Source: a bacterium
GTDB taxonomy: Bacteria > Armatimonadota > Fimbriimonadia > Fimbriimonadales > Fimbriimonadaceae
DNA: 64,000 bases
NCBI GenBank assembly: GCA_027483535.1
Contig: JAIXUN010000004.1
Span: forward strand, 1 to 64,000
Direction: 5' to 3'
Below are positions 7,865 through 10,377 of this stretch, in pieces. The notes under the pieces were generated by a model. That model had not been told where the DNA came from, did no database searches, and worked only from the letters and a program-made list of their open reading frames with translations. The position numbers were made by a program, and so were the translations under genes. Each line of letters begins with the position of its first letter. The stretch's first letter is position 1.

Positions 7865-7913
7865 AAGCCCGCTTGTTCTCTGGATTCCCAGGAACAAGCG
7901 GGCTTTCTTCATT
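7865..7913 (+). terminator. Strong Rho-independent terminator
   Basis: A perfect 14-bp stem (7865-7878 with 7892-7905, AAGCCCGCTTGTTC and complement) is followed by a T-rich tract. It ends the lipoprotein transcript and insulates the dop operon. Confidence 0.9.
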
Positions 7914-7958
7914 TTTAACCCGGACCCTGACCCTAACCCTGACGTAGAGTAGAACGGA

Positions 7959-9446
7959 ATGCGACCGATCCTTTGCGGCACCGAAACCGAATACGGCCTC
8001 ACCGTCGAGGGGTTAGGCGCGTCTGACCAAATTGAATTCGCCACCGAGTTCGTTCGCGGCTATCCCCAACCGGGGTCCGATCGAGTGGCTTACCTGGGTT
8101 GGGACTACCGCCTGGAATCGCCCCGAGCCGACCTGCGAGGGTTCAAACTCAAAGCGCTCGCCTTTGATCCCGAAGACGCCCAGTACGACAAAGGGAAGGT
8201 CTACGGGAGCAGCGAGGAGATCCGGTCGGACCGAATCCTAGACAACGGCGCGCGGTTCTATAACGACCACGGTCATCCCGAATACAGCACTCCGGAGCGA
8301 TTCTCGATTTTCGAGGTTGCCAAAGACGACCTCGAGGGCGAGATCGTGATGCTGGAAGCGGTGCAAGCCTACGGTCGAAAGACCGGAAAAGAGGTTCGCG
8401 CTTACAAGAACAACACCGATTTCCACGGGGCGTCTTACGGCACTCACGAGAGTTACCTGGTGCCCCGAGCACACGGTTTTGAGCCCCTGTTTCAGGCCGT
8501 CACGCCAATGCTCTTCGTGAGGCAACTGCTGACCGGGGCGGGCAAGGTCGGGGCGGAATCCGGTGCCAAATGCGCCTATCAAGCGAGCCAACGCGCCGAT
8601 TTCTTTGTCGAGCCCGCGAATGCGGAGACCCTCTACCGTCGACCCATTTTCAACACTCGCGACGAACCGCACGCCGACGCCGCTAAGTGGATTCGCCTTC
8701 ACGTGATCTCGTGTGACGCCAACCGTCAGCCCCTCTGCGTGGCCCTTCGACTCGGCCTGGTGAAACTCGCCTTGCACCTGCTGGACGCAGGGGTCGCCCC
8801 CAAGTTCGAGTTCACCGACGTCGTGAAGGCCTTCAAAGACCTCAGCCGCAATCCGAACCTAGACGAGCCGATCCCGCTCAAGGGTCGGTCGCACACCACG
8901 GTCCGGGCGATTTTCGACTCCTACTTCTCTGCCGCGGAGGCTCATCTGGATTTGACCGATCCCCACGAGGGGGCGCAAATGCGGTGGACCATCGACACGG
9001 CCCGAGCCCTGCTGGAAGCATTCGAGAACGACTTCCCCGCCTTTGCACGGCAAGTGGACTGGGCGATCAAGCGCGAGGTTCTGCAGCAAGTTTGTGAAGC
9101 CGAAGGCTGGGAGTGGGGCGACCCCCGACTGGCCTCTTACGACCTAGAATTCGCGAACATCGATCCCGAAGAGAGCCTGTACGAGGCAATGCGGATGATG
9201 GAAGCGGTGGAGGGGCCGACCTTCCCCACCCTCCCGGAAAAGCCCAGTCGAGCATTGGCACGGGCGATCGCGGTTCAACATTTTCGACCCTTCCTCAAGG
9301 GGCTCGCCTGGTCGGGCGCAACGTTCAGGATCGATGGGAAAGAGGAGTTTCTGGCCTTTCCGCCGGATATTGTCTATCCTTCAACTCTCGGCGATGTTCC
9401 AGACGTAATAACCTTTAGAGACCGAATCAAGGAGCTCTCCCTATGA
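7959..9446 (+). CDS. dop: Dop-type Pup/UBact deamidase-depupylase (glutamine-synthetase-like fold)
   Basis: The 495-residue product belongs to the Dop/PafA family, which handles Pup-like modifiers: Dop deamidates the C-terminal Gln and removes the modifier from substrates. The nucleotide-binding start GTETEYG (residues 7-13) is followed by WDYRLESPRADLRGF, then an insertion of about 25 residues in the place of the Dop loop. Next come DNGARFYNDHGHPEY (Asp103 aligns with the catalytic Asp), YKNNTDFHGASYGTHESYL, and QRADFF with NTRDEPHAD. The Dop loop and the QRADFF form favour Dop over the ligase PafA. Its stop overlaps the next ATG (ATGA), coupling it to UBact. Ligase versus depupylase is inferred, not proven. 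Confidence 0.9.
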   Translation: MRPILCGTETEYGLTVEGLGASDQIEFATEFVRGYPQPGSDRVAYLGWDYRLESPRADLRGFKLKALAFDPEDAQYDKGKVYGSSEEIRSDRILDNGARFYNDHGHPEYSTPERFSIFEVAKDDLEGEIVMLEAVQAYGRKTGKEVRAYKNNTDFHGASYGTHESYLVPRAHGFEPLFQAVTPMLFVRQLLTGAGKVGAESGAKCAYQASQRADFFVEPANAETLYRRPIFNTRDEPHADAAKWIRLHVISCDANRQPLCVALRLGLVKLALHLLDAGVAPKFEFTDVVKAFKDLSRNPNLDEPIPLKGRSHTTVRAIFDSYFSAAEAHLDLTDPHEGAQMRWTIDTARALLEAFENDFPAFARQVDWAIKREVLQQVCEAEGWEWGDPRLASYDLEFANIDPEESLYEAMRMMEAVEGPTFPTLPEKPSRALARAIAVQHFRPFLKGLAWSGATFRIDGKEEFLAFPPDIVYPSTLGDVPDVITFRDRIKELSL

Positions 9447-9619
9447 ACGCAGATCGAATTCAACGCGACGCACCCACCCCGGAACGCAAGGCTGGGGACG
9501 AATCGGGACCCACTCGGCCGGATGTTTCCAAGCCGGAGGGCGGTAATGAGCTGTTAAAGCGACTCAAGAAAGTGGACCCAGACCAGGCGAAGAAGTACCG
9601 CCAACGATCCGGGCAATAA
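9443..9619 (+). CDS. ubact: UBact, Pup-like protein modifier
   Basis: A 58-residue, highly charged, probably disordered protein, starting at the ATG that overlaps the dop stop. The C-terminal third (LLKRLKKVDPDQAKKYRQRS followed by Gly-Gln) matches the known UBact pattern LLKRxxxVDPxQAKxYRQRxGx, and the centre has the SGPTRPDVS stretch common in UBact. UBact is the Pup homologue described in Nitrospirae, Armatimonadetes and other Gram-negative phyla. It is expected to be attached to lysines of target proteins through its C-terminal side chain and so mark them for the proteasome. The last residue is Gln, so deamidation to Glu by the Dop-type neighbour would be needed before ligation. The proteasome gene starts two bases after its stop codon. 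Confidence 0.93.
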   Translation: MNADRIQRDAPTPERKAGDESGPTRPDVSKPEGGNELLKRLKKVDPDQAKKYRQRSGQ

Positions 9620-9621
9620 CC

Positions 9622-10377
9622 ATGATGGGCCTGCTTTCTGCCTCGGCGAAGCCTTTTGAACAGGTGGTGGAGCCACCTTATCTGAAACCCGTCGGAACCG
9701 GGTCGCCGGACACTCACGGCACCACGGTTTTGGCGCTGAAGTTTGAAGACGGCGTGCTGATCTTCTCCGACCGTCGTGCGACAATGGGCAACCTGATCAT
9801 GTACGACCAAGCGGACAAGATCATGGCGCTGGACGACTCCGCGGTGGTCGCCATTTCGGGCTCGTTTGCCCGGGCGGTGGAGGTTTGTCGATACCTGAAA
9901 CACTCTTTCAAGTACTACCGAAGAGCGTTTCTTCAGGAGCTCAGCACGGAAGGAAAGCTCGCCGAGATCTCGAAGTCGATTGCGGGCAACGCTCCTATGG
10001 CGATGCAAGGAATCGGGCTCTTCATCCCGATTTTGGCGATCTACGATGCCCCTCGAGAGAAGTTCGGAATCTTCTTCTTCGACGGAGCGGGCGCTCGTTT
10101 TGAGAACCCCGAATACGCCTGCGCCGGTTCGGGCAGCGAGCGGATTCGTGGCGTGTTCGAGTATCTCACTCGCACCGAAGGCTCGTTCGAGAAGAAGTCG
10201 CTAGACAAAGTGCTGGAAGACGGTCTGCGAATGTTGGATATCGCAGCCGACCTGGATTCGGCGACGGGTGGCTTCAACAAGGTCGATCCGATTGTGCGAG
10301 TTCTGGATAAGCAAGGCAATCGCGCGGTCGATCACGATCTTCTTCAGAGCACGATCGCGAAAGTGCTCGGTCGATAG
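9622..10377 (+). CDS. prcB: 20S proteasome beta subunit (N-terminal threonine hydrolase)
   Basis: The 251-residue precursor has a propeptide ending in THG; cleavage before Thr34 would expose the catalytic Thr1. From there TTVLALKFEDG runs to SDRRAT, giving Asp17 and Lys33 (numbered from Thr1) of the proteasome active site. DSATGG and the GSGS segment are also conserved in bacterial PrcB. It would degrade UBact-tagged proteins inside a 20S chamber. The start is two bases after the UBact stop; an in-frame ATG follows directly at 9625. No alpha subunit gene follows, unlike most Pup/UBact loci, where prcA is next. Confidence 0.95.
   Translation: MMGLLSASAKPFEQVVEPPYLKPVGTGSPDTHGTTVLALKFEDGVLIFSDRRATMGNLIMYDQADKIMALDDSAVVAISGSFARAVEVCRYLKHSFKYYRRAFLQELSTEGKLAEISKSIAGNAPMAMQGIGLFIPILAIYDAPREKFGIFFFDGAGARFENPEYACAGSGSERIRGVFEYLTRTEGSFEKKSLDKVLEDGLRMLDIAADLDSATGGFNKVDPIVRVLDKQGNRAVDHDLLQSTIAKVLGR

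Follow-up and report, generated by a model that had tools for sequence, protein, structure and literature searches.

A dop-UBact-prcB gene cluster of a Fimbriimonas-like armatimonadote as part of a probable UBact conjugation-proteasome pathway

Three open reading frames, all on the forward strand, form one unit at positions 7959-10377 of the window, the 64,000-nucleotide stretch of DNA that was analysed. They encode a Dop-type enzyme, the small protein modifier UBact and the 20S proteasome beta subunit PrcB:

7959-9446, + strand: dop, UBact/Pup deamidase-deconjugase (495 aa; PF03136, TIGR03688, 4b0r, motifs)
9443-9446, + strand: ATGA, shared by the stop codon of dop and the start codon of UBact (read from the sequence)
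9443-9619, + strand: UBact, Pup-like protein modifier (58 aa, C-terminus RSGQ; PF20513, NF033388, orthologues, purifying selection)
9622-10377, + strand: prcB, 20S proteasome beta subunit (251 aa; PF00227, TIGR03690, Rhodococcus alignment)

The four-base overlap between dop and UBact, which is also common among relatives, suggests translational coupling, while the UBact stop codon is followed by a two-base gap (CC, 9620-9621) and the first ATG of prcB. The coordinates and sequence agree with the coupling of all three genes put forward in the original prediction. No sigma-70-like promoter was found before dop in a promoter scan of the upstream region. Window positions 7865-7905 contain an inverted repeat with perfect 14-bp arms (AAGCCCGCTTGTTC / GAACAAGCGGGCTT) and, after it, a T-rich stretch. 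Judged by its sequence, this is likely a terminator between the upstream gene and dop; the repeat is missing from the automated scan because of its loop (>8). A further short repeat (CCGGACCCTGACCCTAACCCTGAC) lies directly upstream of dop, at 7919-7945. A plasmid or mobile-element origin was considered and rejected, as the only matches of Dop in a plasmid collection were two records from actinobacteria (33% identity).

The prcB product matches the PF00227 (94.2 bits) and TIGR03690 (134 bits) models. Its Thr34 aligns with residue 1 of the mature Rhodococcus PrcB (1q5q), and the protein is predicted to carry a 33-residue propeptide, with Thr34 as the catalytic Thr1. The equivalents of Asp17 and Lys33 are D50 and K66, such that the N-terminal nucleophile Thr, the Asp17 and the Lys33 of 20S beta subunits are each represented.

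The source genome consists of four contigs and is 99% complete, and genome-wide statements made here rest on searches across the genomes. Three further components are encoded outside the window:

C1:1308365, strand not given: PafA-type ligase, a second Pup_ligase enzyme (GSHLEYATAE residues)
C1:2157063, strand not given: PrcA alpha subunit (TIGR03691, E 1e-16)
C1:318208, strand not given: proteasomal ATPase ARC/Mpa (TIGR03689 438 bits, PF16450, PF17758)

Six components are found at four places in the genome and, with PafA, PrcA and ARC at three places other than the window cluster, the pathway is therefore complete on paper. The UBact-proteasome operon originally proposed stands as regards the linkage of dop, UBact and prcB, but does not extend to PafA, PrcA and ARC. 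Dop, PafA, PrcB, PrcA and ARC all score below the respective NCBI equivalog cut-offs. The absence of an alpha subunit, considered when only a weak second PF00227 match had been seen, was rejected on the basis of the TIGR03691 match of PrcA, which is conserved in 84 of 101 genomes. The best solved relative of the ATPase is the proteasome-associated ATPase 5kwa. The ATPase of the window organism has a conserved RK[SNA][IV][IV]-like tail at its C-terminus, as do most proteasomal ATPases of the Armatimonadota (L107-L136, L051, L052, L054); this tail is observed across the family of the window organism and in two of the three distant families read. The C-terminal motif of Mpa is GQYL, and as the tail of the ATPase differs from it, docking to the 20S core may also differ.

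The distribution of the system was surveyed among 101 genomes, comprising that of the window organism and 100 relatives. The modifier was found in 86 of these, while UBact, PrcB, PrcA and ARC occur together in 80 and none of the four in seven. Across the phylum, UBact is found in 167/291 Armatimonadota genomes (132/194 of those at least 90% complete). Among relatives with a completeness of 90% or more, UBact and PrcB are found either together or not at all, with the exception of G096, where the PrcB-like match is marginal. In the reduced genome G047 (1.5 Mb, 97% complete), UBact, Dop/PafA, PrcA, PrcB and ARC were not found. The comparison with related genomes bears out the small frame of the original prediction, which is present, and adjoins prcB, in all 57 genomes of the window's family having both genes. 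prcA is linked to prcB in 0/55 genomes of this family, but in 12/12 of family f2 and 7/8 in more distant families, while in family f5 prcB and prcA lie together, mostly separated from UBact. ARC is located near UBact in six of eight distant genomes and in none of the window's order. The simplest reading of these arrangements is that an ancestral ARC-dop-UBact-prcB-prcA-pafA operon would have been broken up stepwise.

It is highly unlikely that UBact is conjugated mainly as a non-degradative, reversible mark, with the proteasome serving other clients. Pup-type systems that lack a proteasome do exist (PMC2588565, PMC3511204), and G093, a member of the same phylum, carries a Pup-like cassette while proteasome genes were not found in its genome. 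Both the adjacency of UBact and PrcB throughout the family and their co-occurrence in the relatives at least 90% complete argue against such a role.

The G093 cassette is one of six of a second, separate Pup-type observed in Armatimonadota genomes, which encode a JAMM peptidase, an ARC-like ATPase, a Dop-like protein, a small tag and a PafA-like protein:

L145:5377-12792: JAMM cassette, G093
L152:850-7554: JAMM cassette, G095
L153:3186-9601: JAMM cassette, G161
L161:4210-10956: JAMM cassette, G236
L163:6814-14000: JAMM cassette, G278
L162:2492-5783: JAMM cassette, G109 (truncated within the Dop-like gene by the contig end)

The HxHP...SxxD motif of the peptidase is intact in all six cassettes, and the tags end in QQGGE, KQRGGQ, RQDGGQ, TQQSGE and RQRGGQ in five genomes, the sixth being cut by the contig end. 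Proteasome genes are absent from the cassette in all six genomes, and the one tag scanned matched no Pfam or NCBIfam family. PrcA, PrcB and UBact were not detected in G093 (99% complete), while G095 and G236 carry UBact in addition to the cassette. Searches of the open literature for Pup or PafA together with a JAMM or JAB protein yielded no description of the cassette, which possibly constitutes an undescribed, proteasome-independent variant of pupylation. Speculatively, an ATPase that works with a JAMM isopeptidase on a Pup-like tag would be comparable to Rpt and Rpn11 in the eukaryotic proteasome. A Dop/PafA-type enzyme is furthermore encoded in G094 (L146:7517-9745), where a 235-aa ORF upstream ends in GGSSGE; PrcA and PrcB were not found in this genome (80% complete), and the locus may resemble the planctomycete type without a proteasome.

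The 495-aa protein encoded upstream of UBact belongs to the Pup_ligase family (PF03136; 375.8 bits), which includes both Dop and PafA. Its score against the TIGR03688 Dop model (317 bits) falls short of the cut-off of 492.3, and it is therefore named Dop-type on the basis of its best model, structure and residues rather than as an NCBI equivalog. There is only a slim chance, smaller still than that of a non-degradative mark, that this enzyme is the ligase PafA or performs both jobs. The PafA model also matches, and the score is below the NCBI cut-off for both models, but the Dop model scores higher (TIGR03686 PafA: 226 bits), as do Dop structures, the best solved relative being the Dop of Acidothermus (4b0r; E 1.5e-65). 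Apart from the GxExE motif (E9, E11), the protein contains the Dop-type residues D103-H104 and S110-T111-P112 (NDHGHPEYSTPE), assigned by the residue signature for the D103 neighbourhood in Table 1 of PMC7947786, and a Dop-loop insertion that is absent from the separate PafA-type enzyme of the same genome, in which GSHLEYATAE residues are found. A Dop-type assignment is thus retained for the 7959-9446 product.

The UBact product, MNADRIQRDAPTPERKAGDESGPTRPDVSKPEGGNELLKRLKKVDPDQAKKYRQRSGQ (58 aa), matches Pfam PF20513 (77.8 bits; E = 5e-22; cut-off 27.8) and NCBIfam NF033388 (77.7 bits; E = 6e-22; cut-off 35), with the match reaching the last profile position, so that the profile search strongly supports the identity originally assigned. 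The C-terminus (...LLKRLKKVDPDQAKKYRQRSGQ) also fits the pattern LLKRxxxVDPxQAKxYRQRxGx proposed at the outset. The protein thus combines scores above the family cut-offs with the short length and the Gly-Gln or Gly-Glu end of UBact, and the genomic partners of this modifier are present, with dop and prcB adjacent and PafA, PrcA and ARC elsewhere. Only UBact families of Pfam and NCBIfam were matched, and no Pup family; PF20513 matched none of 14 control genomes, and no Pup chain was among the PDB sequence matches of UBact up to E 10. The suggestion that gene calling can miss a gene of 58 codons is reasonable, but NCBI does have a model for this protein.

In the first copy of every genome, the tail consists of YRQRSG followed by Gln or Glu, while one second copy has YEQRSGQ instead; the terminal residue is Gln in 52 and Glu in 35 of 87 distinct copies. 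As the UBact of the window ends in Gln (RSGQ), deamidation by Dop should be needed before ligation. Both endings are found within one genus, and Dop is kept with either; in actinobacteria, Dop is needed as a deconjugase even where Pup requires no deamidation (PMC3511204). Among 19 genus-level orthologues, pN is lower than pS in 171/171 pairs, with a mean pN of 0.126, a mean pS of 0.718 and a pN/pS of ~0.18 over the last 38 codons, a ratio that is only indicative because pS is near saturation. The frame evolves as a protein under purifying selection. The notion of a chance ORF that happens to link dop to prcB, although the frame is short, overlaps dop and lies in a region rich in mechanical ORFs, has virtually no probability left, being already refuted by the profile match, the unmatched controls, the near-invariant C-terminus of the 87 copies and the substitution data.

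A tandem pair of UBact genes precedes prcB in G100 (L048; C4:768105-768378), the second having a divergent N-terminus and the end RRYEQRSGQ, and two or three UBact matches were observed in several other Armatimonadota genomes. A Dop-UBact fusion was considered for G027, G031 and G055, where UBact lies within long open frames. It was rejected, as none of these frames encodes Dop in the frame of UBact, which begins at an ordinary start in all three genomes.

With high confidence, the dop-UBact-prcB cluster belongs to a complete UBact conjugation-proteasome pathway of this Fimbriimonas-like organism. UBact would be made with a C-terminal Gln, which Dop would deamidate to Glu, and the unlinked PafA would then attach this Glu to lysines on target proteins. 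Recognition of the tag and unfolding of the target would fall to the ring ATPase of ARC/Mpa type, which would pass the protein into a 20S core formed by PrcB together with PrcA, likewise unlinked, while Dop could also take the tag off and so recycle UBact. Gene content, active-site residues, co-occurrence and conservation are direct observations on this pathway, and for its biochemical steps we infer a course like that of actinobacterial pupylation, where roles in deamidation, ligation and removal have been described (PMC3511204, PMC7947786). No experimental paper on UBact was found in the open literature. Active tagging and degradation in the window organism, as originally proposed, would follow from such a course.

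The UBact system was reportedly named by Lehmann et al. in 2017 (BBRC 483:946, doi 10.1016/j.bbrc.2017.01.037), and has been described mainly from sequence. The window system shares with it the modifier family (PF20513, NF033388), the G[QE] C-terminus and the same kinds of partners, namely conjugation enzymes and a proteasome, but differs in that only dop, UBact and prcB are linked, PafA, PrcA and ARC being scattered. Actinobacterial pupylation (Pup, Dop, PafA, Mpa/ARC and PrcBA) likewise employs homologous enzymes and a proteasome, as well as a tag of ~60 residues that ends in Gln or Glu, with Dop needed for the Gln form. UBact differs from Pup in its RSG[QE] tail, in contrast to the di-glycine of Pup, and in its sequence matches, which comprise the UBact family alone in Pfam and no Pup chain in the PDB. 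Given the naming of UBact in 2017 and the curated family models, the window system is of an already described type, and the locus adds a family member and a survey of relatives, but no new mechanism. A wider reading, which we consider unlikely though less so than the alternatives above, is that the pathway has been re-wired in this family: prcA, pafA and the ATPase gene would have left the operon, a non-Mpa tail would dock the ATPase on the 20S core, and tag supply and proteasome assembly would be set separately. The survey does provide one family in which UBact is near-universal and all six components are present, some of them relocated. As such, the relatives of Fimbriimonas are candidates for the first biochemical test of UBact conjugation.
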